A stretch of 40,164 nt of DNA from Lutibacter flavus (GTDB lineage: Bacteria > Bacteroidota > Bacteroidia > Flavobacteriales > Flavobacteriaceae): positions 1-40,164 of the forward strand of contig CAMDPE010000003.1 of the NCBI GenBank assembly GCA_945903795.1, in the 5' to 3' direction. Below, piece by piece: positions 1 to 27,487 of this stretch. The translations under genes and the position numbers were made by a program. The stretch's first letter is position 1, and each line of letters begins with the position of its first letter. The notes beneath the pieces were generated by a model. The model saw only the letters and a list, made by a program, of their open reading frames with translations, searched no databases and had not been told where the DNA came from.

Positions 1-2883
1 TCAGGCACGGCCACATCGGCAAGTGATTATGCAGCAATAGGAACGACAGTTGTTATCCCGGCCAACACCACCAGCATTACGGTACCGGTAACGGTAGTGG
101 ATGACAGTATCGTGGAGACCACAGGAGAAACTGTGATTGTGACCTTAACGGGTACCGACACGGCAGTGACCATCAACACGAACAATAACCTAGCAACCTT
201 AACCATAGCAGATGAAGATGCCTCGGCAGTAAGCATTTCAGCCGCTACTCAGGCGGGTGAACCAGCAACAAATGGCTTGTTCACTTTAAGCTTAACCAAT
301 CCGGTAAGTATAGCTACCACGGTAACATATACAGTATCAGGTACGGCTACATCGGGAGTTGATTACACAGCCTTAACAGGCACAGCAACAATTGCAGCGA
401 ATGGAACGACAGTGACTATTTCAGTGCCAGTGATCAATGATAACATAGTTGAGACCGGCGGAGAAACGGTAGTTGTGACAATAACAGGTGCAGGATCTGT
501 AGTTACTTTAGGAACAGCAGAAGCTACTGTAACCATAGCAGATGAAGATGCCTCGGCAGTAAGTATTTCAGCCACTACTCAGGCGAGTGAACCAGCAACC
601 AATGGACTGTTCACCTTGACCTTGAGCAATCCGGTAAGTGTATCCACCACAGTGACATACACAGTATCAGGCACGGCCACATCGGCTACAGATTACATCG
701 CCTTGACAGGAAGTATCACCATCCCGGCCAACACCACCAGCATTACGGTACCGGTAACGGTAACGGATGACAGTATTGTGGAGACCTCAGGAGAAACTGT
801 GATTGTGACCTTAACGGGTACTGACACGGCAGTGACCATCGACACGAATAATGACGCAGCAACGGTAACGATAGCAGATGATGACGCATCAGTAGTGAGC
901 ATAGCGACAACCAATCAAGCAGGAGAGCCAAACAGTAATGGACAGTTTACTTTAATTTTGACCAATCCGGTATCTGTAGCCACCATGGTAAACTACAGTG
1001 TAACGGGTACTGCCACATCGGCTACAGATTACGCGGCCTTGACAGGCACGGTAGTTATTGCGGCCAATACGACCAGCATCACCATCCCGGTAACGGTAAT
1101 TGATGACAGTATCGTGGAGACCTCAGGAGAAACTGTGATTGTGACCTTAACGGGTACCGACACGGCAGTGACCCTTGGCACATCAGCAGCGACCGTAACG
1201 ATATCTGACAATGATGCATCGCAGGTAAGCATTGCAGCCACGACTCAGGCGAGCGAACCAAACAGCAATGGACAGTTCACAATAACGTTGAGCAATCCGG
1301 TATCTGTAGCCACCACGGTAAGTTATACCGTAGCGGGCACCGCCATAGCAACGGATGATTACGCAGCCTTGACAGGCACAGTAATGATAGCTGCAGGCAA
1401 CACTACAGCTACGATAACAGTAGCAGTAGCGGATGACAATATTGTAGAGACCGGCGGAGAAACCGTTATAGTGACCTTAACGTCAACAGACACCGCTGTA
1501 ACAGTAAGCACATCAAGTTCAGCGACTGTAACGATAGCTGACAATGATGTATCGGCAGTAAGCATTGCAGCCACTACTCAGGCGAGCGAGCCAGACAGCA
1601 ACGGACTGTTCACCTTGACCTTGAGCAATCCGGTAAGTGTATCCACCACAGTGACATACACAGTATCAGGCACGGCCACATCGGCAAGTGATTATGCAGC
1701 AATAGGAACGACAGTTGTTATCCCGGCCAACACCACCAGCATTATGGTACCGGTAACGGTAACGGATGACATTATTGTGGAGACCTCAGGAGAAACTGTG
1801 ATTGTGACCTTAACGGGTACTGACACGGCAGTGACCATCGACACGAATAATGATGCAGCGACCGTAACGATAGCAGACAATGACACATCAGTAGTGAGCA
1901 TAGCGGCAACCAATCAAGCAGCAGAGCCAAACAGTAATGGACAGTTCACTTTAACCTTGACCAATCCGGTATCTGTAGCCACCACGGTAAGTTATACCGT
2001 ATCAGGCACGGCCACATCGGCTACAGATTACGTGGCCTTGACAGGCACGGTAGTTATTGCGGCCAATACGACCAGCATCACCATCCCGGTAACGGTAACG
2101 GATGACAGTATCGTGGAGACCTCAGGAGAAACTGTGATTGTGACTTTAACAAGTACCGACACGGCAGTGACCCATGGCACATCAGCAGCGACCGTAACGA
2201 TATCTGACAATGATGCATCGCAGGTAAGCATTGCAGCCACGACTCAGGCGAGCGAACCAAACAGCAATGGACAGTTCACAATAACGTTGACCAATCCGGT
2301 ATCCGTAGCCACTACAGTGACCTACACCGTATCCGGCACGGCCACATCAACGGATGATTACGTGGCCTTGTCAGGCACAGTAAGCATAGCTGCAGGCGAC
2401 ACCACAGCCACCATATCGGTAACGGTAGAGGATGACAGTATTGTGGAGACCTCAGGAGAGACCGTGATTGTGACCTTAACGAGAACAGACACCGCGGTAA
2501 CCTTAGGCACATCAGCAGCGACCGTAACGATAGCAGACAATGACGCTTCAGTAGTAAGTATTGCAGCAACGACTCAGGCGAGTGAACCAGCAACCAATGG
2601 ACTGTTCACCATCAGTTTGACCAATCCGGTATCGGTAGCCACCACAGTGACCTACACTGTATCAGGCACCGCCACATCGGCAAGTGATTATGCAGCCATA
2701 ACAACGACAGTTGTTATCCCGGCCAACACCACCAGCATCATCATCCCGGTAACGGTAACGGATGACAGTATTGTGGAGACCTCAGGAGAAACTGTGATTG
2801 TGACCTTAACGGGTACCGACACGGCAGTAACCATAGACACGAATAATGACGCAGCAACGATAACCATTGCAGATGATGATATT
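1..2883 (+). repeat. Tandem Calx-beta-encoding array, units of 330-336 bp (~110-112 aa), with ~1-kb three-unit higher-order periodicity
   Basis: The unit landmark 'tcaggcacggccaca' or a variant begins at 1, 337, 667, 1003, 1333, 1666, 2002, 2332 and 2662. The array continues upstream of the window. Confidence 0.95.
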
Positions 2884-4902
2884 GATAGTTCTGTAATTTC
2901 CATCAATAATGTTTTGATTCCTGAAGGAAATAATGGCAATGCTAACTTTGAGTTTATAGTATCTTTATCCAAAATTTCCAATTTACCTGTAAATATTGAT
3001 TATGCAGTATTTGATGGAACAGCAACTGTTTTAAATGGTGACTACGCAATAGTTTCATCCGGAAATCTAATTTTCTTGCCAGGTGAAACATCCAAAACAA
3101 TTACAGTAATTGTAAATGGTGATCGAGTGTTGGAATTGGATGAAACATTTACTGTTGAACTCAACAATTTGAATGGAAATGGCAATTTAATAACAATGGG
3201 CAATTCTATTGGAATTGGAACGATTCTTAATGATGATCATGCACCAATATTATCGGATGTTTTAATCACAGGAATTGAAGATAATGATGTTATTTTTGGT
3301 ACGGGCGATTTCTTAAATGTATTTACAGATGCAGATGGAGATTCTTTGTATAGTATTGAAATACTTAGTTTGCCTGAAAATGGCACGTTATATCTTTACA
3401 ATGTTGAAATAAATGTTGGAGATGTAATACTGGCTTCAGATTTAGGGAATATGATTTTCACGCCAAGTTTTAACTGGAATGGAGTAACTAGTTTTAATTA
3501 CACAGCTTCAGACGGTATTAATTTAGCTTTAGAAAATCATATGGTTATAATTACCATTGGTGTAATAGATGACTTACCTATTGCAAATGATGATTTCATT
3601 TCTACAACTCAAAACACTGAAATAACTGGTAATGTTTATAACAATGACATACCTAGTGGTGATGGAGTAAACGTTTGGAGTTTATTAGGCTTAAACGGAG
3701 GCAGTATTAATGCGGTTGTTACTATGGATTCAGAAGGTAATTATTCTTATAGTCCAAATCCATATTATTATGGTAATGACAGTTTTGTCTATCGTATTAC
3801 AGATGCCAATGGAGATGTTTCAAATGCTGTTGTTTTTGTATCTGTAAATCCTAACTCAAATTCTTCATTGACATTAATTAAAACAGCCACTATTGAAGGA
3901 AATGGATCTGTTGGAGAAATCATTAAATATACTTTTACACTAACAAATACAGGAAATGTAACCGTAAATAATATAGGTATTAATGATGCTTTAATTTCAG
4001 CAACATCAATAGCGATAATTCCTTCTTTAGCGCCAAATGAACATACATTTGTAACAGTTAATTATAGAATTACCCAGGCCGATATAGATGCAGGTTTAAT
4101 TACAAATACAGCAAATGCTTCTGGAGTTGATGCACTTGGCAAATCTGTAACCGATGTTTCAGATGACGGAAATGCAAATAATGGAAATGACAATCCAACA
4201 ATTACGTCATTGGTTCAGTCCCCTGAAATAGCAATAGTTAAAACAGCCATATTTAATGATGAGAATACAGATGGATTTGCGCAAGCAGGTGAGACAATAT
4301 CTTATAAATTTAAGGTAAGTAACATTGGAAATGTCACTTTAGCAAATATTGAAATTAACGATCCTTTACCTGGAGTTGTTGTTTCAGGAAGCCCAATTAT
4401 ATTAGAAGCAGGAGAATTTGACAATACTACCTTTGCGGCCATTTATACAATTACGCAAGATGATATTAACAAAGGAAGTGTCACCAATCAGGCATCAGTA
4501 TCAGCTATTAGCTCTAGAGGTGCGGTTGTTGAAGATTCATCGGATGATATTGATAATTATGGTGATAATCCAACAGTGTTATCGATAACGGGATGTGTAG
4601 TTGAAGTCTTCAATGCTGTATCGCCAAATGGAGATGGTGATAACGATGTGTTCTATATCCGTGGTCTAGAATGTTATGGTGACAATAGTGTTGAAATTTA
4701 TAACCGTTGGGGAAGTTTGGTATTTGAGCGCGATCATTATAACAATACAGATCGTGCTTTTAAAGGTATTTCTGAAGGAAGGTTAACAGTTAATGCGCCA
4801 AAAGAGTTGCCAGATGGTGTTTATTTCTACATTTTAAAATATAAAGATGTAAATGCCAATGTTCAGCAAAAAGCAGGTTACTTATATATAAACAGAAGAT
4901 AA
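1..4902 (+). CDS. Giant Calx-beta repeat surface protein/adhesin, 5'-truncated by the window; C-terminal DUF11-like domains and T9SS type-B (gliding motility-associated, CHU_C-type) sorting domain
   Basis: Frame is open from base 1 (SGTATSASDYAAIGTTVVIPANTTS...), so the true start lies upstream of the listed Met at 97. Repeated DD.IVETSGETVIVTLTGTDTAVT..ATVTIADND motifs; C-terminus VEVFNAVSPNGDGDNDVFYIRGLECYGDNSVEIYNRWGSLVFE...DGVYFYILKY is typical of the T9SS type-B domain. Confidence 0.93.
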   Translation, partial: SGTATSASDYAAIGTTVVIPANTTSITVPVTVVDDSIVETTGETVIVTLTGTDTAVTINTNNNLATLTIADEDASAVSISAATQAGEPATNGLFTLSLTNPVSIATTVTYTVSGTATSGVDYTALTGTATIAANGTTVTISVPVINDNIVETGGETVVVTITGAGSVVTLGTAEATVTIADEDASAVSISATTQASEPATNGLFTLTLSNPVSVSTTVTYTVSGTATSATDYIALTGSITIPANTTSITVPVTVTDDSIVETSGETVIVTLTGTDTAVTIDTNNDAATVTIADDDASVVSIATTNQAGEPNSNGQFTLILTNPVSVATMVNYSVTGTATSATDYAALTGTVVIAANTTSITIPVTVIDDSIVETSGETVIVTLTGTDTAVTLGTSAATVTISDNDASQVSIAATTQASEPNSNGQFTITLSNPVSVATTVSYTVAGTAIATDDYAALTGTVMIAAGNTTATITVAVADDNIVETGGETVIVTLTSTDTAVTVSTSSSATVTIADNDVSAVSIAATTQASEPDSNGLFTLTLSNPVSVSTTVTYTVSGTATSASDYAAIGTTVVIPANTTSIMVPVTVTDDIIVETSGETVIVTLTGTDTAVTIDTNNDAATVTIADNDTSVVSIAATNQAAEPNSNGQFTLTLTNPVSVATTVSYTVSGTATSATDYVALTGTVVIAANTTSITIPVTVTDDSIVETSGETVIVTLTSTDTAVTHGTSAATVTISDNDASQVSIAATTQASEPNSNGQFTITLTNPVSVATTVTYTVSGTATSTDDYVALSGTVSIAAGDTTATISVTVEDDSIVETSGETVIVTLTRTDTAVTLGTSAATVTIADNDASVVSIAATTQASEPATNGLFTISLTNPVSVATTVTYTVSGTATSASDYAAITTTVVIPANTTSIIIPVTVTDDSIVETSGETVIVTLTGTDTAVTIDTNNDAATITIADDDIDSSVISINNVLIPEGNNGNANFEFIVSLSKISNLPVNIDYAVFDGTATVLNGDYAIVSSGNLIFLPGETSKTITVIVNGDRVLELDETFTVELNNLNGNGNLITMGNSIGIGTILNDDHAPILSDVLITGIEDNDVIFGTGDFLNVFTDADGDSLYSIEILSLPENGTLYLYNVEINVGDVILASDLGNMIFTPSFNWNGVTSFNYTASDGINLALENHMVIITIGVIDDLPIANDDFISTTQNTEITGNVYNNDIPSGDGVNVWSLLGLNGGSINAVVTMDSEGNYSYSPNPYYYGNDSFVYRITDANGDVSNAVVFVSVNPNSNSSLTLIKTATIEGNGSVGEIIKYTFTLTNTGNVTVNNIGINDALISATSIAIIPSLAPNEHTFVTVNYRITQADIDAGLITNTANASGVDALGKSVTDVSDDGNANNGNDNPTITSLVQSPEIAIVKTAIFNDENTDGFAQAGETISYKFKVSNIGNVTLANIEINDPLPGVVVSGSPIILEAGEFDNTTFAAIYTITQDDINKGSVTNQASVSAISSRGAVVEDSSDDIDNYGDNPTVLSITGCVVEVFNAVSPNGDGDNDVFYIRGLECYGDNSVEIYNRWGSLVFERDHYNNTDRAFKGISEGRLTVNAPKELPDGVYFYILKYKDVNANVQQKAGYLYINRR

Positions 4903-4960: not shown

Positions 4961-5887
4961 ATGAAAAAAATAGTAGCAATATTGGGTTTAATGTTTTTAA
5001 CAGGTTTTAGTTATGCCCAACAAGATCCTCAGTTTACACAGTATATGTACAATACAATTACTATAAATCCGGCCTATGCAGGAAATTATCAAGGTATGCG
5101 AATTTTTCTTTTAAACCGCTCTCAATGGGTTGGCCTGGAAGGAGCTCCTGTAACAACCAATCTTTCAATTAGCTCACCAATTAACGACAATCTTGGTGTT
5201 GGGGTAACTATTATGAATGATAAAATTGGGCCATCAGACGAAAATAATATTGCTGTAGATTTCTCTTATACAATTGCAACTTCGGAAAAATATAAATTAT
5301 CCTTCGGATTAAAAGCAAGTGCAAATTTATTGAATATCGATTTTAATAAATTGAGTCAATACAATAATGGGGACTTCAGTTTTGAAACCAACATAGAGAA
5401 TAAATTGTCTCCAAATATAGGTGCTGGAATTTATTTATATTCAGACAAAACATATGTAGGAATATCTGCCCCCAATCTTTTAGAAACAAGACATTTCGAT
5501 AGATATGCAAATACAGGAGCAACCAGTTATGTTGCGCAGGAACGAATTCATTTTTTCTTAATTATGGGGCAAGTTTTTGATTTAAGTCCTTATTTAAAAT
5601 TTAAGCCAGCATTGCTTTCGAAATTTGTGCAAGGCGCTCCATTGCAGATAGATATGTCTGCAAATTTTTTAATAAATGAAAAGTTTACTTTAGGTGCTTC
5701 TTATAAATCCAGTAAAACATTTGGTGCCCTTGTAGGATTTCAAGCCAGCGATTCTTGGTTTATAGGATATGGATATGATTTAGAAACTACAAGATTGGCA
5801 CGCTACAATTCAGGTTCGCATGAAATATTTTTACAATATGACTTATTTAATAAATTTGGAAAAACGATTTCACCAAGATTTTTCTAA
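4961..5887 (+). CDS. Type IX secretion system membrane protein, PorP/SprF family
   Basis: Signal peptide then QQDPQFTQYMYNTITINPAYAGNYQGMRIFLLNRSQWVGLEGAP, the PorP/SprF N-terminal signature. Located directly downstream of a T9SS type-B adhesin. Confidence 0.93.
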   Translation: MKKIVAILGLMFLTGFSYAQQDPQFTQYMYNTITINPAYAGNYQGMRIFLLNRSQWVGLEGAPVTTNLSISSPINDNLGVGVTIMNDKIGPSDENNIAVDFSYTIATSEKYKLSFGLKASANLLNIDFNKLSQYNNGDFSFETNIENKLSPNIGAGIYLYSDKTYVGISAPNLLETRHFDRYANTGATSYVAQERIHFFLIMGQVFDLSPYLKFKPALLSKFVQGAPLQIDMSANFLINEKFTLGASYKSSKTFGALVGFQASDSWFIGYGYDLETTRLARYNSGSHEIFLQYDLFNKFGKTISPRFF

Positions 5888-5946: not shown

Positions 5947-7890
5947 ATGAAATATTTATACACAGTAATTTTTGTCGGTATAACATTTTTTGGCTTTGCT
6001 CAAGAAAAAAACAAAGAGACCAATACTTTTTTTGAGAAAATGGAATATGCAGAAGCGGCCAAGCAATATGAGTTGGATTTTTTAAAGGGCAATAATTCGA
6101 AAGAATTGTTACAAAAGCTTGGAGATGCCTATTATTTGAATACAAATATGGCAGATGCCAACAAATGGTATGGGAAATTAATTGAAAAGTATTTTAATGA
6201 GGTTGATTCAGAATATATTTTTAAATATGCGCAGTCTTTTAAAGGTCTAGGAAAATTAAGCGCTGGAAATAAATGGATGAAGCTATTTGCTGATAAAAAC
6301 AAAACTTCTATAGCGAATGAAAGTGGCGAAAAAGAGTTGGCTTTACAACAAGATTTGGAGCAGGATCCTCATTTTAGGTTGAAAAATGTTTCAATAAATA
6401 CTTTATTTTCAGATTTTGGTCCAATGTACTTTGGCAATAAAATAATATATGCATCTGAAATAAATTCATCATACAACCAACCAATTAAAAACAACTTAAA
6501 ACAACAGCCATATCTTAATCTCTATATTGGAAGTATTAATAAAGAAGGCAATGATATAGAAATGATTAATAATTTTTCAAAAGTAATAAATTCTAAATAC
6601 CACGAAGCTACTTTGTCCTTTTCGGCAGACCTTAAAAAAGTGTATTACACACGAAATAATTATAATGGAAAAGGTAAAACAGACAATGGTAGTGTCAACC
6701 GATTAAAACTTTATAGTGCCACGGAAATTATTGGTAATGACGGTAAAGCCGAATGGGGAAATATAAAGGAATTGCCGTTCAACAGTAAAGACTATTCAGT
6801 TGGGCATCCTGCAGTTAGTAATGATGGCGTTAAATTATATTTTGTGTCAGATATGCCAGGTTCAATTGGAGAAACTGATATTTTTGTTGTCGATATTTTA
6901 GGTGAGGACCAATATTCTAAACCAAAAAATTTGGGTTCAAAAATAAATACCGCTGCAAGAGAAATGTTTCCTTTTATAACTGAAAATTCCTTGTATTTTG
7001 CTTCAGATGGGCATCAAGGACTTGGAGGGTTGGATATTTTTGAAAGTAAGTTAACTGCAGACTCATTTGAAACCCCAATAAATTTGGGTGCGCCGCTCAA
7101 TTCTGCTTCAGATGATTTTGGTTTTATTATTAATGAACAAGAAAAAAACGGATTTGTTTGCTCTAACAGAAATTCTGGAAAAGGGGGTGATGATATTTAT
7201 TTTTTCGAGAGAACCCTCTCAAAACCTTGCGAGCAAAAAATTAAAGGATACATATCAAACAATGTAACAGGTGAACGCATTTCAGACGCCAAAATTGTTT
7301 TATATTCAAATAGTGGGGAAATATTATCCGAAACTCAGACCAAAATTAATGGAGAATATGCTTTTGAAAATGCGCTTAATTGTGATGTCGTCTATAAAAT
7401 TTCAGTTCAAAAATTAGGTTATAAAAGTGCAGAAAAGTTGGCTTTAACTTCAAATAGAAAGGGAGAAACCTTTGTGCCAATAGGATTGGATTTTATCAAT
7501 GAACTTATTGTTGAAGAAAATGGCCTGCTTAAAATTAAGATTGGAATTATTTATTTTGATATTGATAAATTTAATATTAGAGAAGATGCCGCCCGAGAAT
7601 TTAATAAAGTTGTTTTGCTGATGAATCAATATCCTAAAATGATTATCAATATAGAATCTCATACAGATTCCAGAGGGGTAGACAATTATAATTTGACCTT
7701 ATCAAATGAAAGGGCGCAAGCAACAAAAAATTACATTATTGAACATGGCATTAATAGTGAAAGAATACTTAATGCGGTTGGATACGGTGAAACTCAATTA
7801 ATGAATGAATGTAAAAATGGCGTTACTTGTGCAGATGCGCTTCATCAATTAAATAGAAGGTCTGAATTTATTATTTTAAAAATTTATTAA
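5947..7890 (+). CDS. OmpA family protein with TPR-like N-terminus, PD40-type repeats and regulatory-like domain
   Basis: Signal peptide; SNDGVKLYFVSDMPGSIGETDIFVVDI / ENSLYFASDGHQGLGGLDIFES PD40 motifs; C-terminal IYFDIDKFNIREDAAREFNKVV...IESHTDSRGVDNYNLTLSNERAQATKNYIIEHGI OmpA domain. Confidence 0.92.
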   Translation: MKYLYTVIFVGITFFGFAQEKNKETNTFFEKMEYAEAAKQYELDFLKGNNSKELLQKLGDAYYLNTNMADANKWYGKLIEKYFNEVDSEYIFKYAQSFKGLGKLSAGNKWMKLFADKNKTSIANESGEKELALQQDLEQDPHFRLKNVSINTLFSDFGPMYFGNKIIYASEINSSYNQPIKNNLKQQPYLNLYIGSINKEGNDIEMINNFSKVINSKYHEATLSFSADLKKVYYTRNNYNGKGKTDNGSVNRLKLYSATEIIGNDGKAEWGNIKELPFNSKDYSVGHPAVSNDGVKLYFVSDMPGSIGETDIFVVDILGEDQYSKPKNLGSKINTAAREMFPFITENSLYFASDGHQGLGGLDIFESKLTADSFETPINLGAPLNSASDDFGFIINEQEKNGFVCSNRNSGKGGDDIYFFERTLSKPCEQKIKGYISNNVTGERISDAKIVLYSNSGEILSETQTKINGEYAFENALNCDVVYKISVQKLGYKSAEKLALTSNRKGETFVPIGLDFINELIVEENGLLKIKIGIIYFDIDKFNIREDAAREFNKVVLLMNQYPKMIINIESHTDSRGVDNYNLTLSNERAQATKNYIIEHGINSERILNAVGYGETQLMNECKNGVTCADALHQLNRRSEFIILKIY

Positions 7891-7926
7891 ATTTAAGATA
7901 AACTGACTTCTAAGCTGTGACTTAAA

Positions 7927-8142
7927 TTGTTTAATTTACATAACGATCTATGTTTTTTTAAAAACTGTTTGTTTGATGGCGGCGTTTTTAACGTTCGTGA
8001 TTTTATAAGAAATGGCGCGAGCGATGAGGAGTTAAAGCAACTGTTTATCAATACCATTCATCACAAACCCGAAAATGGTTTTATTGCCGAGGATTCCAGA
8101 GGAAACGCCGTTTCGGAAAGTATGTCTACTATTGGCGGTTAA
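7927..8142 (+). pseudogene. moaA: C-terminal remnant of MoaA (GTP 3',8-cyclase)
   Basis: The ~60-residue peptide FFKNCLFDGGVFNVRDFIRNGASDEELKQLFINTIHHKPENGFIAED...SESMSTIGG* resembles the MoaA C-terminal region (..GKLKNCLF...VRD.LR.GASDEEL.. ending in GG). The radical-SAM CxxxCxxC domain is absent, and the intact OmpA gene ends only 36 bp upstream. Confidence 0.72.
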
Positions 8143-8350
8143 ATCAATTATCACTTGATTATTTGCTTTTAAATACAGCTCATTCTGAATTTATTTTGAA
8201 ATTTGTTCAGATAATAAATCATTGGCTGAATCTAAAAAAGCATTTAATATTGTTTAATCAAAAAACGAATAACTTTAAACATAGGATTACTTTCTGTTTA
8301 CTTTTTACCTTCATTTTTGTTGAGTTCAAAATTTATTTTTTAAGATAAAA

Positions 8351-8400
8351 TATATTTTGTTTAATATATTTTGTTTAACATTAAACATTCTGTATCTTTG
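8351..8400 (+). promoter_or_regulatory. Promoter with overlapping operator candidate for the tetR operon
   Basis: Two exact tandem copies of TATATTTTGTTTAA (8351-8364, 8365-8378); perfect palindrome TGTTTAA-CA-TTAAACA (8372-8387); TTG (8371-8373) - 19 bp - TATCTTTG (8393-8400) matches the Bacteroidota TTG-N~19-TAnnTTTG promoter. Confidence 0.7.
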
Positions 8401-8415
8401 TGCTCAAATATTTAT

Positions 8416-9078
8416 ATGATGAAAGCAAAAAAGAAACTCACTGCCAATATGTTATTTTCGAACTATATGAATTATGTTTTGGAAAATAATTCGAATCCGC
8501 CATCGGTCTATTCTTTCGCGAAGGCAAATGATTTTGAAGAAGCCGATTTTTATAAATTTTATGGCTCTTTTGAAGCTTTGGAAAAGGCCGTTTTCGCTAC
8601 ATTTTTTGATAATTCTATAGAAATGTTGGCCAAAAGCGAAGAATTTCAATCGTTTGATGCCCGCAATAAATTACTGAGTTTTTATTTCACTTTTTTCGAA
8701 AACCTGACTGCCAACAGAAGTTACGTGGTTTATGCGCTAAAAATGCATAAAAATAACATGAAAGCTTCGGGAAAATTGTCGGAATTAAAACACCGTTTTA
8801 CGCAATTCATCAGCGAGCTGGAAATAGAAATGATTGATGTTAAACAAGATAAATTAAAGAAATTTCAGGATAAAACGCTTGAGGAAAGCGCTTGGATTCA
8901 ATTGTTGGTTACCATAAAATTTTGGTTGGATGACACCTCTGCTTCCTTCGAAAAAACAGATATTTTTATTGAAAAATCCTTAAACGCAAGTTTCGATTTG
9001 TTAAATGTTCAACCGCTAAAAAGCATCATCGATTTGGGTAAATTTTTATTCAAAGAAAAAATGAATCCCAAACTTTAA
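8416..9078 (+). CDS. TetR/AcrR family transcriptional regulator
   Basis: TetR-like HTH region (..PPSVYSFAKANDFEEADFYKFYGSFEALEKAVFATFFDNSIEML..). The ORF track starts at 8371, inside the predicted promoter; Met at 8416 or 8419 is more plausible. Confidence 0.75.
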   Translation: MMKAKKKLTANMLFSNYMNYVLENNSNPPSVYSFAKANDFEEADFYKFYGSFEALEKAVFATFFDNSIEMLAKSEEFQSFDARNKLLSFYFTFFENLTANRSYVVYALKMHKNNMKASGKLSELKHRFTQFISELEIEMIDVKQDKLKKFQDKTLEESAWIQLLVTIKFWLDDTSASFEKTDIFIEKSLNASFDLLNVQPLKSIIDLGKFLFKEKMNPKL

Positions 9079-11432: not shown

Positions 11433-11440
11433 TATATTTG
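11433..11440 (+). promoter_or_regulatory. Candidate -7 element (TATATTTG) upstream of moeA
   Basis: Matches TAnnTTTG, 21 bp before ATG at 11462. No convincing -33 TTG at optimal spacing. Confidence 0.4.
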
Positions 11441-11461
11441 TTGCTTATAATTTTACACCAA

Positions 11462-12661
11462 ATGGACTTAATCAACGTAAAAGAAGCTTTAGAAATCGTA
11501 TTAAAGAATTCCGAAAATTTTGGCATCGAAGAAGTGGATTTTTTAAATTCGTCAGGCCGCGTTTTAAAGGAATCCATTTTTGCCGATCGCGATTTTCCGC
11601 CGTTTGACAGGGTAAGTATGGACGGAATTGCCATTTCCTCAGAAGCTTTTAGCAACGGACAAAGAACATTTAAAATTGAAGGAATTCAGGCTGCCGGAAG
11701 TGAGCAATTAACGATCCAAAATACGTCAAATTGTATGGAAGCGATGACCGGCTCAGTACTTCCAAAAAACACCGATACAGTCATTCAATATGAATTGTTG
11801 ACCATTGAAAACGGAATTGCCACAGTAAATTCAGAAGCTGTAAAAAGTTTTCAAAATATCCATTTAAAAGGAACCGACAAAAAACAAGGCGATTTGCTGA
11901 TAAATGAAAACACGCTCATTTCTCCTGCCGAAATAGGAATTTTTGCCACCGTTGGAAAAACGACTGTGAAAGTCGCGAAACAGCCAAAAGTCATCGTCGT
12001 TTCTACAGGTAATGAATTGGTTGAAGTTGGCGAAATTCCGGCTGACCATCAAATCAGAAGAAGCAATGTTTTTACCTTGGTTTCCCTGTTGGAAAAACTG
12101 CAAATAAAAGCAGAAACCTTGCATATTTTGGATGATAAAAAAGTGCTGTTGACCAAAATTGAATCCTTGCTGGCAACCTATGATGTGTTGATTTTCAGTG
12201 GCGCGGTTTCCAAAGGAAAATTCGATTTTATTCCTGAAGTTTTGGATCAATTGGGCGTAAAAAAACTTTTTCACGAAGTAAAACAACGTCCGGGAAAACC
12301 ATTTTGGTTTGGTAAAAAAGATAAAAAAACAGTTTTTGCTTTCCCTGGAAATCCGGTCTCAACTTTTGTAAATTGCGTAAAATATTTTTATCCGTGGCAT
12401 TATAAATCCGTTGGATTGAATTTTGAAAACAAGCACCAGGCAATTCTTAGCGAAGATTTCTATTTTAAACCCGAACTTACCTATTTTTTACAGGTGAAAT
12501 TAAATCAGGTTGAAGGCAAATTAATGGCAACGCCCATTTCAGGAAAAGGTTCTGGCGATTTGGCCAATTTGGCTGAAGCCGATGCTTTTTTGGAATTGCC
12601 GGATAATCGCAGTAATTTTACCAAAGGAGAAGTTTTTCCTGTAATTATTTATCGACAGTAA
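11462..12661 (+). CDS. moeA: Molybdopterin molybdotransferase MoeA
   Basis: MDLINVKEALEIVLKN; DFPPFDRVSMDGIAI; MTGSVLPKNTDTVIQYE; VIVVSTGNELVEVGE; VKQRPGKPFWFG; FAFPGNPVSTFV. ATG at 11462 is preferred over 11438, which overlaps the -7 element. Confidence 0.95.
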   Translation: MDLINVKEALEIVLKNSENFGIEEVDFLNSSGRVLKESIFADRDFPPFDRVSMDGIAISSEAFSNGQRTFKIEGIQAAGSEQLTIQNTSNCMEAMTGSVLPKNTDTVIQYELLTIENGIATVNSEAVKSFQNIHLKGTDKKQGDLLINENTLISPAEIGIFATVGKTTVKVAKQPKVIVVSTGNELVEVGEIPADHQIRRSNVFTLVSLLEKLQIKAETLHILDDKKVLLTKIESLLATYDVLIFSGAVSKGKFDFIPEVLDQLGVKKLFHEVKQRPGKPFWFGKKDKKTVFAFPGNPVSTFVNCVKYFYPWHYKSVGLNFENKHQAILSEDFYFKPELTYFLQVKLNQVEGKLMATPISGKGSGDLANLAEADAFLELPDNRSNFTKGEVFPVIIYRQ

Positions 12662-12698: not shown

Positions 12699-13178
12699 AT
12701 GGAAAATAAATTTTCTCATATCAATAAAAAAAATCAGCCAAAAATGGTTGATGTTGGCGATAAAAAAGTCACCAACCGCGCGGCAACCGCAAAAGCAACG
12801 ATGTTTTTGGGCGCAGACATTATTGCGCATTTTGAAGACAAAGAGTTAATCACCAAAAAAGGCCCGGTTTTCCAAACTGCGATTATTGCCGGAATTCAGG
12901 CGGTTAAAAAAACTTCGGAACTGATTCCAATGTGCCATCCTTTGTTAATTAACGGCATCGATATTGACATTGAAATTACGGACAGGGAAAATATAGAAAT
13001 TTTATGCACGGTTACTATGGAAGGAAAAACCGGTGTTGAAATGGAAGCGTTAACTGGCGCGACTGTTGCTGCACTCACCGTTTATGATATGTGTAAATCC
13101 ATTTCGCAAAAAATGGTGATTAAAGAAGTGAAACTGCTTAAGAAATCTGGCGGAAAAAGCGAACTAAAAAATGAGTAA
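12699..13178 (+). CDS. moaC: Cyclic pyranopterin monophosphate synthase MoaC
   Basis: MVDVGDKKVTNRAATAKATM; IAGIQAVKKTSELIPMCHPL; VEMEALTGATVAALTVYDMCKSISQKM. Confidence 0.97.
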   Translation: MENKFSHINKKNQPKMVDVGDKKVTNRAATAKATMFLGADIIAHFEDKELITKKGPVFQTAIIAGIQAVKKTSELIPMCHPLLINGIDIDIEITDRENIEILCTVTMEGKTGVEMEALTGATVAALTVYDMCKSISQKMVIKEVKLLKKSGGKSELKNE

Positions 13179-14286
13179 GCATCAAAAACATACGAAACTT
13201 AAATTAAGGGACAACGACAATTTTGCGCCGAATGAAATTGCCATTGTGGGTACAAAATGCAGCGTTATTTCAAATTTGGTTCAGCAGGTTTCCGAGAAAT
13301 TGGGAATGTATAAATTGGCGTATCTGGACGCTTCCCACAGTGAAGAAATCGAAGGAAAAAAGTTTGATTCTTTTACTTTTAATGCCAATGAAACCCTTGC
13401 TGTTTCAGAAAAATATGTGATAAACAAATTCAATCAGCGCGTGCAATTTTCTCAGCACGATTTGGTGTTTATCAACGGAAATCATTTTGAAGGCGCCAAA
13501 CAAATTCTAATTTTAGACCAAGAGAAAGAGGCCTCTGTGTTGAAAAGATTGGATCAGTTAAACAACATTCAGTTTGTCATCAAATTAACCGATGACGCCA
13601 AGTATTTCAATTTTTTGGAAGAAAAAAATCCGCAGATAAAAAACTTACTGTGTTATCATATTACTGAAATAGACAAGATTTCAAATCATATCGAAAATTT
13701 AATCAAGGAAAAAATAGCGCCCGTTCACGGATTGGTTTTGGCCGGCGGAAAAAGCACCAGAATGGGAACCGACAAGGGCACGCTTAACTTTTATGGTAAA
13801 AATCAGCGTGATGTGGCCATTGAATTGCTGGAAAAGAACCATTTAAAAGCATATTTGTCTGTTAGAGAAGAACAAGAAATAGGAATTGAAAACAAAATCA
13901 CCGACAAGTTTATTGGTTTGGGGCCTTTTGGCGCCATTTGTTCCGCGTTTCAGGAAAATCCGGATGTCGCTTGGCTGGTTTTGGCAACCGACTTGCCTTT
14001 TGTGAACGATGAAGTAATTAAATTGTTGCTAAAACACAGAAATCCATCAAAAGTGGCCACTGCCATAAAAGGAAAAAACAGTCAGTTTCCTGAGCCTTTG
14101 ATTACCATTTGGGAACCAAAAAGTTATACCTTATTGCTCAATTATTTGGCGCAGGGCTATTCTTGCCCGCGGAAAGTTTTGCTCAATTCCGATATAGAAA
14201 TTGTTGAAGTTGATGATGATTTCATCAGAAACATCAATACACCAGAAGAATTTAACGCGGCCCACAAAGAAATAAACGAGGAATAA
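13171..14286 (+). CDS. mobA: MobA-like molybdenum cofactor nucleotidyltransferase with ~185-aa MobB-like N-terminal extension
   Basis: C-terminal half HGLVLAGGKSTRMGTDKG...LGPFGAICSAFQ...LVLATDLPFV is MobA-type. N-terminal half starts with IAIVGTKCSVISNLVQQVSEKL where MobB would carry its P-loop. Overlaps moaC by 8 bp. Confidence 0.87.
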   Translation: MSKHQKHTKLKLRDNDNFAPNEIAIVGTKCSVISNLVQQVSEKLGMYKLAYLDASHSEEIEGKKFDSFTFNANETLAVSEKYVINKFNQRVQFSQHDLVFINGNHFEGAKQILILDQEKEASVLKRLDQLNNIQFVIKLTDDAKYFNFLEEKNPQIKNLLCYHITEIDKISNHIENLIKEKIAPVHGLVLAGGKSTRMGTDKGTLNFYGKNQRDVAIELLEKNHLKAYLSVREEQEIGIENKITDKFIGLGPFGAICSAFQENPDVAWLVLATDLPFVNDEVIKLLLKHRNPSKVATAIKGKNSQFPEPLITIWEPKSYTLLLNYLAQGYSCPRKVLLNSDIEIVEVDDDFIRNINTPEEFNAAHKEINEE

Positions 14287-14303: not shown

Positions 14304-15383
14304 ATGAACTTCAATAGAGAAACCTATTTTTTGCGTCAGACAACCTTGCCGGAAATTGGTAAGTCCAAGCAAGCGCTGTTGCAACAAGCAAAAGTGCTGG
14401 TGATTGGTTGTGGCGGATTGGGAAGTCCGGTTGCCGTTTATTTGGCGGCAAGCGGTGTTGGAGAATTGCATTTGGTTGATTATGATACGGTTTCAGTTTC
14501 AAATTTGCACCGTCAGGTTTTTTATAAAAAGGAAGATGTTCAGCAGCCAAAAGTGGAAGTGCTGGCCAATGAAATAAGGAAAAGAACGCCTTTCACCAAA
14601 GTTTCTGTAACCAATGAAGCAGTCACTAAAAATTCCATTTTGGCATTGATTTCAGGCTTTGATGTGGTGGTAGATGGGACCGACAATTTACAGGTGAAAT
14701 ATTTAATCAATGATGCCTGCGTTTTGGCTAAAAAACCGCTGGTTTACGGCTCTTTATATAAATTCGACGGCTATGCGGCAACTTTTAATGTGTTGGGTGA
14801 AGATGGTTATTACAGCTGTAATTTACGGGATGCATTCCCCAAAATTGCCACCGATATTCCCAACTGCGAAGAAGCCGGAACGATGAATCCCATAGTTGGG
14901 ATGATTGCGCTTTTGCAGACAAATGAAGTAATCAAATTAATCACTAAAACGGGTAAATTGCTTACAAACAAATTGCTGATTTACAACGCATTGGAGAATT
15001 CTCAGTTCAAAATGAAACTGAAGAAAAACAACGCTTTAGACATACAATCTATTTTTGAAAAATCAAATTATCTTGCTGAAACCTGCGAAAATCAAGATCC
15101 TTCTTTGCTGATTTCTGCTTCTGAATTAAAAGAAAAAATTGACGATTCAACTTTAGAAATTGTGAGTGTACTTAACAATTCAGAAGAATTTATTCCGTTT
15201 AAAGTGCATCAAAAAATGCCATACAATGCTTTTGATGTTGAAAATTTTCAACCAAATTTTAAAAAACACTACGTAATTGTTTGCAAAAAGGGAATCACCA
15301 GCTATGAAATTACTTTAAAACTAAAAGAAAAATATCCATTGCTTTCAGTCGTTAGTTTGTCTGAAGGCATCATAAATTATTAA
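14304..15383 (+). CDS. moeB: ThiF/MoeB family adenylyltransferase with C-terminal rhodanese-like domain
   Basis: VLVIGCGGLGSPVAVYLAASGVGELHLVDYDTVSVSNLHRQVFY...VDGTDNLQVKYLINDAC; C-terminal VIVCKKGITSYEITLKLKEKYP (CxxGxxS rhodanese-like loop). Confidence 0.93.
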   Translation: MNFNRETYFLRQTTLPEIGKSKQALLQQAKVLVIGCGGLGSPVAVYLAASGVGELHLVDYDTVSVSNLHRQVFYKKEDVQQPKVEVLANEIRKRTPFTKVSVTNEAVTKNSILALISGFDVVVDGTDNLQVKYLINDACVLAKKPLVYGSLYKFDGYAATFNVLGEDGYYSCNLRDAFPKIATDIPNCEEAGTMNPIVGMIALLQTNEVIKLITKTGKLLTNKLLIYNALENSQFKMKLKKNNALDIQSIFEKSNYLAETCENQDPSLLISASELKEKIDDSTLEIVSVLNNSEEFIPFKVHQKMPYNAFDVENFQPNFKKHYVIVCKKGITSYEITLKLKEKYPLLSVVSLSEGIINY

Positions 15384-17202: not shown

Positions 17203-17625
17203 TTACGGATGTGAATTCACCCAAACTTCACCATCGTTAAAATGCTCTTTTTTCCAGATGGGAACTGTTTCTTTTAGGGTATCAATGGCAAATTCACAAG
17301 CTTCAAAAGCTGCTTTTCTGTGTGCGGACGAAACCGCGATAATTACGGGAATATCTCCAATTCGCAATTCACCAACCGCATGATGAATGGCTATTTTATG
17401 GATTTGAAACTTTGCCAAAGCCAAATCTGCAATTTTTTGCATTTCCTTTAAAGCCATTGGTTCGTAAGAACTGAAATCCAATAAGGAAACCTCCTTATTT
17501 TTTGTTGAATTCCGAACAGTACCCACAAATACGGCAATGCCGCCACAAGTAGCATCCTGCACAAAATCGTAACAATCCTGAACCATTAATTTTTCCGAAG
17601 TAATTAAAACAGCGGTGTTTTTCAT
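17203..17625 (-). CDS. moaE: Molybdopterin synthase catalytic subunit MoaE
   Basis: GGIAVFVGTVRNSTKNKEV..LDFSSYEPMALKEM...HHAVGELRIGDIPVIIAVSSAHRKAAFEAC..AIDTLKETVPIWKKE. Confidence 0.96.
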   Translation of the reverse strand: MKNTAVLITSEKLMVQDCYDFVQDATCGGIAVFVGTVRNSTKNKEVSLLDFSSYEPMALKEMQKIADLALAKFQIHKIAIHHAVGELRIGDIPVIIAVSSAHRKAAFEACEFAIDTLKETVPIWKKEHFNDGEVWVNSHP

Positions 17626-17662: not shown

Positions 17663-17905
17663 TTATCCTCCGCTTACCGGCGGAATGATTGCCACCACAT
17701 CATTTTCTTTTAAAACCAAATCATCTTCGGCATATTCCTCATTTACGGCAATGGCAAATTCATCGATGTTTTTTAATTTTGAATATTTCAACAGCAATTC
17801 TTTTTTTAATGCCAACACAGTTTCTTCCGAATTCAATTCGTAAAAAATTGAATTTTCACCTACCAAATCTGTAGCAATTCCAAAAAATAACAGTTGAATT
17901 TTCAT
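17663..17905 (-). CDS. moaD: Molybdopterin synthase sulfur-carrier subunit MoaD
   Basis: 80-aa ubiquitin-like protein, MKIQLLFFGIATDLVGENS...LKENDVVAIIPPVSGG with C-terminal GG. Confidence 0.94.
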   Translation of the reverse strand: MKIQLLFFGIATDLVGENSIFYELNSEETVLALKKELLLKYSKLKNIDEFAIAVNEEYAEDDLVLKENDVVAIIPPVSGG

Positions 17906-17984: not shown

Positions 17985-17998
17985 GTGATGAATATCAC
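17985..17998. promoter_or_regulatory. CRP/FNR-like palindrome GTGAT-GAAT-ATCAC
   Basis: Perfect 5-4-5 inverted repeat (TTGCGTGATGAATATCACAAAA) in the intergenic region between divergent moaD and the FeS-NrfD gene; resembles half-sites of the CRP/FNR superfamily. Confidence 0.5.
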
Positions 17999-18019
17999 AA
18001 AACTAATTTTTACATTCGT

Positions 18020-18027
18020 TAAATTTG
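18020..18027 (+). promoter_or_regulatory. Candidate -7 element (TAAATTTG) for the FeS-NrfD/molybdoenzyme operon
   Basis: Matches TAnnTTTG and lies 26 bp before the ATG at 18054; no clear -33 TTG. Confidence 0.35.
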
Positions 18028-18053
18028 TTATAGTTCAAAATATTTTCAAAAAT

Positions 18054-19670
18054 ATGAAGTATGGTTTTATAATTGACAATCGCAAATGCATTGGTTGTCA
18101 CGCTTGTACAACAGCCTGTAAATCAGAACATGATGTGGCTATTGGAGTAAACAGAACCTACGTGAAGCAGGTTGAAAAAGGAGAATTTCCAAATACGCGA
18201 AGAATTTTTTCAGTGATGCGCTGCAACCATTGCACCGACGCTCCTTGCGTGGAAATTTGTCCGGTTCAGGCGCTTTACACCCGTGAAGACGGGATTGTGG
18301 ATTTCGACAACAACCGTTGTATCGGTTGTAAATCTTGTATGCAAGCTTGTCCTTACGACGCTTTGTATATTGATCCCGATACACATACTGCGGCAAAATG
18401 CAATTATTGTGCACACAGGGTAGATGTTGGTCGTGAGCCGGCTTGCGTATCCGTTTGCCCGGAACATGCGATTATTGCCGGTGATATGCACAATCCGAAC
18501 ACGGAGATTTCGCAATTGTTGGCACGCCAGGCGGTGAAAGTCCGCAAGCCTGAAAAAGGAACAAATCCTAATTTATTTTATATAGATGGAGACGATGCTT
18601 CATTGGTTGCAGAGGCAACAGACAAGTCGGGTCCAAGTATGTGGAGTTCACAGGCGCGAGGTGTTGGACATTTTGCGAAAGCTGCGGAAAAAATGATGTA
18701 CAGCAATAAGGAGTTCGATTTATTGCAGATGACAATCGACAATGATATTGAAGCGGCTTACCAAAGAAAAGACAGTGAAAATCCGAATTATATAGATGTA
18801 TTGAACGGGAAAGCCCGCAGAGTATATGACACGCCGGATAAAGGAATATTGTGGGGCTGGGAAGTTTCCGCCTATGTATTTACCAAAGCCATCGCTGCAG
18901 GCGCTTTTTTAATTCCTTTTTTGGCCATGCTGTTGGGCTATGAAGTTTCTCCAACCGCTAAATTATGGTCGGCAGGAATTTCGTTGGTTTTCCTTGGGCT
19001 AACAGGGTTATTCTTGGTGATGGATTTAGACAGGCCGGACCGATTTTTAAATGTTTTATTGCGTCCGCAGTGGAATTCCTGGTTGGTGAAAGGCGGTTAT
19101 ACAATTACTGTTTTCGGATTGTTGGTAACAATTTGGGGAGCAATGACCTTCTTCGAAATAAAAACCGGTGAAACTGTTTTATTATGGATTACTGTAGTTT
19201 TCGCCATATTGTTGGCAATTTATACCGCATTCTTATTTGCCCAGGCTAAAGGCCGCGATTTTTGGCAAAGTCCAACCTTACCGCTGCACATGTTGGTGCA
19301 CAGCGTGATGGCGGGAACTGCAATTTTTGTGATTGCTTCCCTGGTTTTCGGTTATGAAGACTGGATGGTGATGCTGAGAAACACCATGATTATTGCTTTG
19401 GTGGTGAACCTTTTTACGCTGGTTACTGAATTAACCATCACACATCCGACCACTTCAGCAAAAATGGTGGTGAAAATGATCACGAAAGGAAGGTATAAAA
19501 ATCTGTTTTGGGGCGTTACCGTTTTGGTAGGAAACATCATTCCATTGGCATTGTTGCTTTTGGGTGCTGGAGAATTAGTGGCTGTGTTATCAGGAGTTTG
19601 TGTTTTGGCAGGAATTCTCATCACAGAGAAAATTTGGGTGGAAGCACCACAAAGAGTTCCGTTAGCTTAA
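18054..19670 (+). CDS. Fused four-cluster ferredoxin + NrfD/PsrC-type membrane subunit (polysulfide reductase-like electron transfer module)
   Basis: Cys groups CIGCHACTTAC, CNHCTDAPCVEIC, CIGCKSCMQAC, CNYCAHR..ACVSVC (16 Cys, four [4Fe-4S]), followed by multiple TM helices of NrfD type (GWEVSAYVFTKAIAAGAFLIPF...DLDRPDRFLNVLLRPQWNSWLVKGGY). ATG at 18054 preferred; the 17985 start overlaps the palindrome and -7. Confidence 0.93.
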   Translation: MKYGFIIDNRKCIGCHACTTACKSEHDVAIGVNRTYVKQVEKGEFPNTRRIFSVMRCNHCTDAPCVEICPVQALYTREDGIVDFDNNRCIGCKSCMQACPYDALYIDPDTHTAAKCNYCAHRVDVGREPACVSVCPEHAIIAGDMHNPNTEISQLLARQAVKVRKPEKGTNPNLFYIDGDDASLVAEATDKSGPSMWSSQARGVGHFAKAAEKMMYSNKEFDLLQMTIDNDIEAAYQRKDSENPNYIDVLNGKARRVYDTPDKGILWGWEVSAYVFTKAIAAGAFLIPFLAMLLGYEVSPTAKLWSAGISLVFLGLTGLFLVMDLDRPDRFLNVLLRPQWNSWLVKGGYTITVFGLLVTIWGAMTFFEIKTGETVLLWITVVFAILLAIYTAFLFAQAKGRDFWQSPTLPLHMLVHSVMAGTAIFVIASLVFGYEDWMVMLRNTMIIALVVNLFTLVTELTITHPTTSAKMVVKMITKGRYKNLFWGVTVLVGNIIPLALLLLGAGELVAVLSGVCVLAGILITEKIWVEAPQRVPLA

Positions 19671-19726: not shown

Positions 19727-22648
19727 ATGGGTTACAAAAAACCATCATTTATAGAAGGAATTGCTGAAAAATTAGGCATCATTCCTAATTTGCATAAAGA
19801 CGGCCATCAGGAATTTGATCAGGATATGCGCCATTTTACCGATGAACAAGTAGCGCAACTGTATGAGAATTTTCCGCCACCTGAAAAATGGGACAATTGG
19901 GTGGAATACAATCCGAAGGTATGGCCAAAAAAGGAAAAAGTCACTTATCAAATTGTGCCGACTACCTGTTTTAATTGTGAAAGCGCCTGTGGATTAACCG
20001 CATTCATCGACAAAGAAACTCAGGAAGTCAAAAAATTTGAGGGAAATCCTTACCATCCGGGAAGCCGAGGAAGAAACTGCGCCAAAGGTCCGGCCACCAT
20101 CAATCAATTGACAGATCCAGACCGAATTTTATTTCCGCTGAAAAGAAAAGGAAAAAGAGGTGAAGGAGAATGGGAGCGTGTGAGTTGGGACGAAGTGCTC
20201 GACACTATTTCTTTAAGAATCAGAAATGCCATTTTGGAAAATCGCCACAATGAAGTTGCTTACCATGTGGGAAGGCCGGGTCATGAAAAATTTATGAACT
20301 GGATTTTGCAGGGCTGGGGAATTGACGGACATAATTCGCATACCAATATTTGTTCTTCAGGAGCACGCTTTGGCTATAATTTGTGGTATGGATACGACAG
20401 GCCATCACCAGATCACGCAGAAGCAAAATTTATATTGCTGATTTCTGCACATTTAGAATCGGGTCATTATTTCAATCCGCATGCGCAACGCATTATTGAA
20501 GGGAAAATGAAAGGCGCCAAATTGGCCACGATGGATCCCCGTTTATCAAATACCGCAAGTATGTCCGATTATTGGATGCCGTCTTATCCGGGAACGGAAG
20601 CCGCCGTTTTGCTGGCGATGGCATTGTATATTTTGCAAAATAAGTTGTACAATAGAGATTATTTAGAAAATTGGACCAACTGGCAAGAATATTTAAAGGC
20701 CAAACACGCAGATAAAGCGATTACTTTTGAGAATTATATTGATGCAATGATCGACGAGTACAAGGAGTTTACGCCTGAATTCGCAGAAAAAGAATCGGGC
20801 GTAAAAGCGGATATGATCGTGGAGATTGCACAAAAAATTGGTGAAGCTGGAGAACGTTTTGCGTCTCATAACTGGCGCGCTGCGGGCGCATCAAACCTTG
20901 GCGGCTGGGCTGTTGCCCGTTGTTTGCATTTCTTAACGGTGCTTACTGGTGCAGTGGGCACAAAAGGCGGGACATCCCCAAATATCTGGAACAAATTTGC
21001 ACCAAGCATTCCAAATCCGCCAAAACCACAGAAACAATGGAATGAATTGCATTTTCCAAAAGAATTTCCTTTGTCATTTTTTGAAATGAGCCAATTGTTG
21101 CCGCATTTCCTAAAAGAAGGAAGGGGAAAACTGGATGTGTATTTTTCGAGGGTTTTCAATCCGGTTTGGACCTATCCCGACGGTTTTACCTGGATGGAAA
21201 TGTTTATGGACGAAAGTAAATTTGGATTGCACGCCGCATTAACGCCAACGTGGAATGAAACTGCTTTTCACGCCGATTTTGTGTTGCCGATGGGATTGGC
21301 TTCGGAACGTCACGACATCAACTCTTACGCCACGCACGGCGGAACTTGGGTGGCTTTTCGTCAGCCAGTGTTGCGTGAAGCTGCGCGAAGAAATGGAAAA
21401 CCTGTGCAACTGACTTATGAAGTGAATCCGGGAGAAGTTTGGGAAGAAGATGAATTTTTTATTGAATTAAGCTGGCGGATAGATCCCGACGGAAGTATGG
21501 GAATTCGCAAACATTTTGAATCGCCTTATCGTCCGGGAGAAAAAATTACTATCGACGAATATTACCAATACATTTTTGAACGCGTTCCGGGCTTGCCGGA
21601 AACCGCCAAAAAAGAAGGCATTACCGAATTGGAGTACATGCAAAAGTATGGCGCCTTTGAAATTGAAAGCGGTGAATCGTACAAAAAGAATGAAACATTA
21701 TTAACCGAAGCGCAGTTAACTGGAGCAATAGTGAATGAAAATAACAATGTTGTTTCCAAAGACGGAAAAGACATCGGTGTAATGATTAACGGAAAAGCGA
21801 TGGTTGGTTTCCCAACGCCATCACGTAAAAATGAGTTTTATTCGCAAACCATGGTCGATTGGAAATGGCCGGAATATGCCACGCCAACTTATATTAAAAG
21901 CCACATTCATCTCGATAATCTGGACAAATCAAAAGGAGAATATGTGCTGGTTCCAACATTCAGGCTGCCGGCGTTGATTCATACCCGTTCGGGAAATGCA
22001 AAATGGCTGGTGGAAATTTCAAACAGAAATCCGATTTGGATGCATCCCGACGATGCGGCAAATTGGGGATTTAAAACGGGCGATTTGGTGAAAATGAATA
22101 CCGATATCGGTTATTTCATCGATAAAGTTTGGGTAACGCAAAGTATGAAACCCGGCGTTGTTGCATGTTCGCATCATATTGGCAGGTGGAGAAGGCCTCA
22201 GGATAAAACAGGAAACAGGTGGGCCACCAATACCGTAAATATTGAAAGCAATGGCAAAGGCGGTTGGAAAATGAACACCATTTCTGGCATTGAACCATTT
22301 GAATCATCGGACAAAGACTCTAAACGAATTTTTTGGAAAGACGGAGGCGTGCACCAAAATATTACCCACGCCGTGCATCCCGATCCTATCAGTGGCATGC
22401 ATTGCTGGCACCAAAGGGTTCGTATTGAAAAACCAGGAAAAGAGGAACATTATGGAGATATTTTTGTGGACACCAACAAATCGCACGAGGTTTATAAAGA
22501 ATGGATGAAAATGACACGTCCGGCTCCGGGGCCAAATGGAGAACGCAGGCCAATTTGGTTTGAAAGAGCTTTTAGGCCCGATCCATCGATGTTTTATCTG
22601 AATGATGAAACGAGCATAACAAATTTTGATACACAAAGAAATGAGTAA
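19727..22648 (+). CDS. Molybdopterin (bis-PGD)-dependent oxidoreductase, DMSO reductase superfamily, catalytic subunit
   Basis: TTCFNCESACGLTAF...SRGRNCAKGPA (FS0 [4Fe-4S] motif), NICSSGARFGYNLW (candidate Cys ligand to Mo), C-terminal molydopterin dinucleotide-binding region NRNPIWMHPDDAANWGFKTGDLVKMNTD. Confidence 0.95.
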   Translation: MGYKKPSFIEGIAEKLGIIPNLHKDGHQEFDQDMRHFTDEQVAQLYENFPPPEKWDNWVEYNPKVWPKKEKVTYQIVPTTCFNCESACGLTAFIDKETQEVKKFEGNPYHPGSRGRNCAKGPATINQLTDPDRILFPLKRKGKRGEGEWERVSWDEVLDTISLRIRNAILENRHNEVAYHVGRPGHEKFMNWILQGWGIDGHNSHTNICSSGARFGYNLWYGYDRPSPDHAEAKFILLISAHLESGHYFNPHAQRIIEGKMKGAKLATMDPRLSNTASMSDYWMPSYPGTEAAVLLAMALYILQNKLYNRDYLENWTNWQEYLKAKHADKAITFENYIDAMIDEYKEFTPEFAEKESGVKADMIVEIAQKIGEAGERFASHNWRAAGASNLGGWAVARCLHFLTVLTGAVGTKGGTSPNIWNKFAPSIPNPPKPQKQWNELHFPKEFPLSFFEMSQLLPHFLKEGRGKLDVYFSRVFNPVWTYPDGFTWMEMFMDESKFGLHAALTPTWNETAFHADFVLPMGLASERHDINSYATHGGTWVAFRQPVLREAARRNGKPVQLTYEVNPGEVWEEDEFFIELSWRIDPDGSMGIRKHFESPYRPGEKITIDEYYQYIFERVPGLPETAKKEGITELEYMQKYGAFEIESGESYKKNETLLTEAQLTGAIVNENNNVVSKDGKDIGVMINGKAMVGFPTPSRKNEFYSQTMVDWKWPEYATPTYIKSHIHLDNLDKSKGEYVLVPTFRLPALIHTRSGNAKWLVEISNRNPIWMHPDDAANWGFKTGDLVKMNTDIGYFIDKVWVTQSMKPGVVACSHHIGRWRRPQDKTGNRWATNTVNIESNGKGGWKMNTISGIEPFESSDKDSKRIFWKDGGVHQNITHAVHPDPISGMHCWHQRVRIEKPGKEEHYGDIFVDTNKSHEVYKEWMKMTRPAPGPNGERRPIWFERAFRPDPSMFYLNDETSITNFDTQRNE

Positions 22649-22697
22649 TGGCGAACTGCATCTGTACCAATAAAAAATAAATAATAGACAGATGAAA
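22604..22697 (+). repeat. Direct repeat copy A: 3' end of molybdoenzyme gene plus 3' UTR
   Basis: gatgaaacgagcataacaaattttgatacacaaagaaatgagtaatggcgaactgcatctgtaccaat...acagatgaaaa aligns with 27392-27487 at roughly 80-85% by eye. Confidence 0.9.
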
Positions 22698-22716
22698 AGA
22701 AAAAAGAAGATTAATG

Positions 22717-27388: not shown

Positions 27389-27391
27389 ACA

Positions 27392-27487
27392 GATGAAACG
27401 AGCATTTCAAATTTTGACACACATAGGAATGATTAATAGCGAACAGCATCTGTTACCACTAAAAAAAAATAATTTAAACAGATGAAA
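27392..27487 (+). repeat. Direct repeat copy B: relic of the molybdoenzyme gene 3' end between MBOAT and SGNH-like genes
   Basis: Aligns with copy A and translates in frame as DETSISNFDTHRND*, compared with DETSITNFDTQRNE* at the molybdoenzyme C-terminus. Bounded by ACAGATGAAA at 27389-27398 and 27478-27487. Confidence 0.88.

Follow-up and report, generated by a model that had tools for sequence, protein, structure and literature searches.

The closest described systems concern either the way in which foreign DNA can leave a partial copy of a gene beside a complete one or the kind of cargo that is found here. In E. coli K-12, the integrase-made insertion of prophage e14 leaves a 163-bp icd' fragment and supplies icd with a new 3' end (PMC6379469). 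In homology-facilitated illegitimate recombination (PMC3240628), one end of the foreign DNA is joined through homology and the opposite end illegitimately. As for the cargo, SprB/SprF-type loci of type IX secretion system (T9SS) surface adhesins pair a type B CTD protein with a PorP-like partner (PMC9143113). Concerning moaA as a reported integration site, we found no title or abstract on that subject.

The locus analyzed here belongs to a Lutibacter bin and is distributed over two contigs, namely C22 and the window, i.e., the whole stretch of 40,164 nucleotides that we analyzed (Table 1). Our reading, which we regard as probable, is that a T9SS adhesin block of more than 26 kb was inserted between moaA and tetR, that the moaA fragment of the window is the scar of this event, and that an intact moaA was retained. 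Such a locus gives a readable footprint of how a conserved metabolic cluster came to contain a very large T9SS adhesin locus, and its insertion site can be compared at both borders and against uninterrupted relatives.

Table 1. Positions of the features discussed, in the window unless contig C22 is indicated
Feature	Position	Strand	Basis or remark
Intact moaA, 328 residues	C22:5741-6727		TIGR02666, Radical_SAM, Mob_synth_C
Left copy of the 194-bp direct repeat, end of intact moaA	C22:6539-6732		blastn
trpF-like stub (77 bp)	C22:6728-6805		directly after intact moaA
Giant Calx-beta adhesin, C-terminal part with CHU_C (type IX secretion signal) end; right end of the putatively inserted block	1..4902	+	Pfam Calx-beta (9 stretches), DUF7507, CHU_C
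PorP/SprF-like outer-membrane partner of the adhesin	4961..5887	+	PF11751, 290 bits
OmpA-family protein (PD40, CarboxypepD_reg, OmpA); last gene of the block	5947..7890	+	Pfam
Right junction, where the 3' flank of OmpA meets moaA sequence	7891..7953	+	no moaA similarity; not alignable with Kmv35 moaA
Right copy of the 194-bp direct repeat	7954..8147	+	blastn
moaA 3'-end remnant, last 61 codons and stop	7957..8142	+	Mob_synth_C, TIGR02666, nucleotide identity
moaA-tetR spacer	8148..8415	+	tetR-proximal part common to Kmv35
tetR-type regulator (TetR_C_23)	8416..9078	+	Pfam; follows moaA in four close relatives
UbiB/ABC1 kinase-like gene, in the older tetR-ubiB-DUF2805-flavin reductase segment	9083..10393	+	Pfam, gene order of relatives
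moeA	11438..12661	+	MoeA_N, MoCF_biosynth, MoeA_C
moaC	12699..13178	+	PF01967
mobA-like NTP transferase	13171..14286	+	PF12804
moeB-like ThiF protein	14304..15383	+	PF00899
moaE	17203..17625	-	PF02391
moaD	17663..17905	-	ThiS family
Fer4-NrfD fusion	17985-19670		with the molybdopterin oxidoreductase
Molybdopterin oxidoreductase, likely client of the cofactor	19727..22648	+	Pfam

The moaA fragment of the window

At the DNA level, moaA homology in the window is limited to the right copy of a 194-bp direct repeat (90.7% identical and gapless by blastn) and stops 5 bp beyond the stop codon; only two copies of this repeat exist in the genome, the other being the end of the intact moaA on C22. The remnant itself encodes the last 61 MoaA residues (FKNCLFDGG...ESMSTIGG) and, over its 186 nt, is 91.4% identical to the end of the intact gene. 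The ORF called around it (7927-8142, 71 codons, TTG start) matches positions 86-125 of the 128 of Pfam Mob_synth_C with an E of 7e-5 and a score of 23.2 bits, which lies under the curated cut-off because the sequence is a fragment. It shares with MoaA (TIGR02666) the last 63 of its 336 positions (274-336) and the terminal GG (...STIGG), whereas positions 1-273, including the radical-SAM domain, are missing; indeed, a search of the fragment for that domain (CxxxCxxC) gave no Radical_SAM match, and the CxxC cysteines preceding the tail in intact MoaA are absent as well.

A frameshifted moaA upstream of 7954 is ruled out, as no moaA similarity was found there by blastn. The called ORF opens with 27-30 bases (7927-7956) of non-moaA sequence, and the TTG at 7927 is the only in-frame start codon ahead of the moaA homology, so that this ORF is not a plausible gene; judged from its sequence, the fragment is a non-functional recombination scar. 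The preliminary description of this DNA had proposed a MoaA C-terminal fragment ending in GG without a radical-SAM domain, in company with moeA, moaC, mobA-like, moeB, moaE and moaD genes and next to a rearrangement at the OmpA boundary. The profile matches agree with the first point, Pfam matches all of the accompanying genes, and the OmpA 3' flank is joined directly to moaA sequence. Among the 38 genomes of the genus, the fragment is present in one only, namely the bin under study, and it is thus no widespread stand-alone gene.

Cofactor synthesis and gene order in relatives

The intact moaA of the same bin lies directly behind a crp-type regulator on C22, and its product scores 339.2 bits against TIGR02666 (cut-off 284.05, positions 1-336) and matches both Radical_SAM and Mob_synth_C of Pfam. 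The Moco genes moaA, moaC, moaD, moaE, moeB, moeA and mobA are all in the bin; since its moaA is complete, cofactor synthesis has not been lost, and by gene content it would continue from the C22 gene. Of the two outcomes first envisaged, an intact moaA elsewhere or a compromised Moco synthesis, the former is what C22 provides and the latter is not supported, given that very gene and the full set. A false alarm is thereby removed: cyclic pyranopterin synthesis is not missing by gene content, and loading the adjacent molybdoenzyme with cofactor is in principle possible.

In the genus, moaA was found in 35 of the 38 genomes. Three genomes (G024, G025 and G026, two of them single-contig assemblies) gave no Mob_synth_C match; the same genomes contain close homologues of the block's OmpA gene. 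Three others (G015, G020 and G029) have two full-length moaA copies each, reflecting either second cofactor clusters or mixed bins.

The usual Lutibacter order is rplU-waaA-crp-yeeE-yeeE-crp-moaA, then moeA-moaC-mobA-moeB(-mutS2)-moaE-moaD, then the NrfD/molybdopterin oxidoreductase pair, and the core order in relatives can be written crp-moaA-(trpF-like)-(tetR-ubiB-DUF2805-flavin reductase)-moeA-moaC-mobA-moeB. The synteny check suggested in the preliminary description found moaA full length in relatives, beside moeA or beside trpF-like/tetR genes followed by moeA, all on one contig. The small trpF-like gene (PRA isomerase family) lies between moaA and moeA in many genomes; DUF2805 and the flavin reductase gene after tetR-ubiB were seen in those relatives whose contig reaches far enough. 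In four close relatives (L036, L037, L038 and L042), tetR-ubiB stands downstream of a full-length moaA, with moaA and tetR contiguous in L036, L037 and L042 and a trpF-like gene intervening in L038, which has both the trpF-like gene and tetR-ubiB. The arrival of tetR-ubiB, initially suspected as the cause of the truncation, is therefore ruled out: tetR-ubiB is the older resident and the adhesin-PorP-OmpA block the newcomer. The tetR-proximal part of the moaA-tetR spacer aligns with Kmv35, the nearest relative, so that the moaA tail has kept its original right-hand neighbour; the match to L036 by blastn begins at about window 8332, 379 bases inside the flank. The closest homologues of the OmpA gene of the block in the genus are 57-67% identical and are sited at unrelated loci.

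The region also contains a dispersed repeat of ~93 bp (window 22605-22700 and 27386-27488, and C22:4935-5115), frequently arranged as tandem pairs; it has more than 40 matches in the genome and copies in relatives (L040, L081). At the three sites inspected it begins at or slightly ahead of gene ends, as a REP-like family.

Two probable halves of one cluster and the proposed insertion

C22 carries the left half of the cluster, from rplU through crp-moaA to the trpF-like stub, a 0.6-kb spacer with a palindrome and the start of a giant adhesin gene, and the window carries the right half, from the adhesin C-terminus through PorP/SprF, OmpA and the moaA tail to tetR and onward. The stub has ATT in place of the ATG start codon, keeps ~26 codons in frame and is the only trpF-like match in the genome. 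On C22, the giant HYR/Calx-beta adhesin is a 5928-codon frame open to the contig edge, and the adhesin frame of the window is open at its left contig edge; both break inside Calx-beta-type repeats at an equivalent repeat position. As the two are separate contigs, with the middle of the giant gene in an assembly gap, 26 kb is a minimum block size (about 18.4 kb on C22 and 8.0 kb in the window). In the single-contig genome G026, a homologue of the C22 adhesin N-terminus (61%) opens a giant gene region of ~33 kb at whose end, on the same contig, lie homologues of PorP and OmpA. We looked in the bin for a second copy of either flank and found none for the left half or the right half; the identity to Kmv35 is 93.1% for crp-moaA and 92.5% for tetR-ubiB, so both flanks are equally close to it. 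C22 and the window are likely, on these sequence data, to be one locus, adjacent across the gap.

The palindrome (C22:6861-6915, 55 bp, A/T-rich and near-perfect) lies in the spacer that separates the trpF-like stub from the giant adhesin gene; further copies of it or of the left spacer were searched in the genome, and each was found at this single locus only. The ~11,000-codon giant adhesin of G026 (G026:C1:2388379-2421369) is interrupted once near 2415273, into frames of 2031 and 8965 codons, by a frameshift or an assembly error.

The two moaA tails differ at 16 of 186 sites; 13 of these fall on third codon positions, and only 3 residues are altered, where random change is expected to alter the protein in ~79% of cases (73% with transitions weighted), giving a P of about 4e-7 for all differences. 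Nine differences are unique to the remnant, two of them replacements (P about 0.0004-0.002), and its reading frame and stop are intact. Measured over 186 bp only, the divergence between remnant and C22 is approximately equal to that between C22 and Kmv35. In the tree, the C22 tail and the remnant group together with weak likelihood support (96/52), within a firm clade with Kmv35 (98/98). As the differences are mostly silent, the two tails diverged as working alleles: the fragment spent most of its divergence within a working moaA and was cut off recently, which suggests a scar made by recombination with related foreign DNA.

The giant T9SS adhesin gene, its PorP/SprF partner and the OmpA gene would, thus, have been inserted as a block downstream of moaA, leaving on the left side the complete moaA followed by the truncated trpF-like gene, and, on the right side, another moaA 3' end that is truncated and runs on into the tetR spacer. 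Since the two 3' ends are diverged alleles, the incoming DNA probably stemmed from a related Lutibacter and brought a moaA 3' end of its own beside the adhesin block. A single crossover in the shared moaA stretch (Campbell-type) would flank the insert with one complete and one 5'-truncated gene; homology on one side with illegitimate joining on the other would give an equivalent layout, and we infer a recombination route of either kind. The block was found beside moaA in no other genome, and the donor is therefore unseen. One caveat concerns the trpF-like gene, which begins on the left flank and is missing from the right one, so that a single, simple insertion into one allele leaves part of the layout unexplained; a stub on the left and none on the right fit two different alleles.

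This asymmetry is also the main reason for considering a mixture of strains, in which C22 and the window would come from two Lutibacter strains; that of the window would have the OmpA-moaA tail-tetR junction, and its own full moaA would simply lie outside the bin. A bin of 306 contigs with 4.38% estimated contamination leaves room for it, as do the two diverged moaA alleles and the two full moaA loci of some other genomes of the genus; however, no second allele of either flank was found in the bin, the two flanks stand at the same distance from Kmv35, and the division of the adhesin block between two contigs is what one locus would predict, so we hold a mixture to be rather unlikely.

Site-specific integration, by an integrase-carrying element that targets the moaA 3' end and brings its own copy as e14 does at icd, would produce the same geometry (PMC6379469), with mostly silent differences between the two ends and an identical run of 35 bp at the moaA 3' end (8110-8144) as a possible crossover site. 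The sequenced parts of the block are, however, occupied by the adhesin, PorP and OmpA frames and contain no integrase, its middle lying in the gap; the homologous blocks of other Lutibacter sit at unrelated loci and the moaA fragment occurs in no other genome of the genus, which makes this explanation unlikely. An improbable course of events, too, is one in which the moaA 3' end was duplicated within the genome during insertion and its right copy then decayed neutrally: the tree grouping of C22 with the remnant speaks for it, but decay should have replaced residues at the random rate given above and not in 3 of 16 (or 2 of 9 remnant-unique) differences, and it should not have spared frame and stop. 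Neutral decay of a self-copy is, thus, disfavoured by the codon positions of the differences. Finally, a functional stand-alone MoaA C-terminal peptide under selection is scarcely credible, the open frame and silent-biased differences being set against a lone TTG start, the lack of a radical-SAM domain and a presence in 1 of 38 genomes.

Insertion of the block with retention of moaA remains our preferred reading. A broader version of it, in which Lutibacter giant-adhesin/PorP/OmpA blocks would move as units and insert at the 3' ends of housekeeping genes, bringing a replacement 3' end along, strikes us as very unlikely; if true, surface adhesins would be swapped between species with the target gene unbroken.

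Comparison with described systems

The locus is an ordinary, though neatly readable, insertion scar. As with e14 and icd', a complete housekeeping gene stands on one side of the insert and a short 3' fragment on the other; unlike e14, the Lutibacter insert carries a T9SS adhesin block as cargo, and no integrase or phage genes were seen in it. According to PMC3240628, homology-facilitated illegitimate recombination can leave partial duplications of the homologous gene, as here; there, the process was observed experimentally with small linear DNA, whereas in Lutibacter it would be read from the scar only. As in SprB/SprF-type loci, the block comprises a giant repetitive protein with a CHU_C C-terminus (PF13585) followed by PorP/SprF (PF11751); it differs from them by its HYR-like/Calx-beta repeats, in a protein whose adhesin function is predicted, and by the OmpA-family gene that follows.
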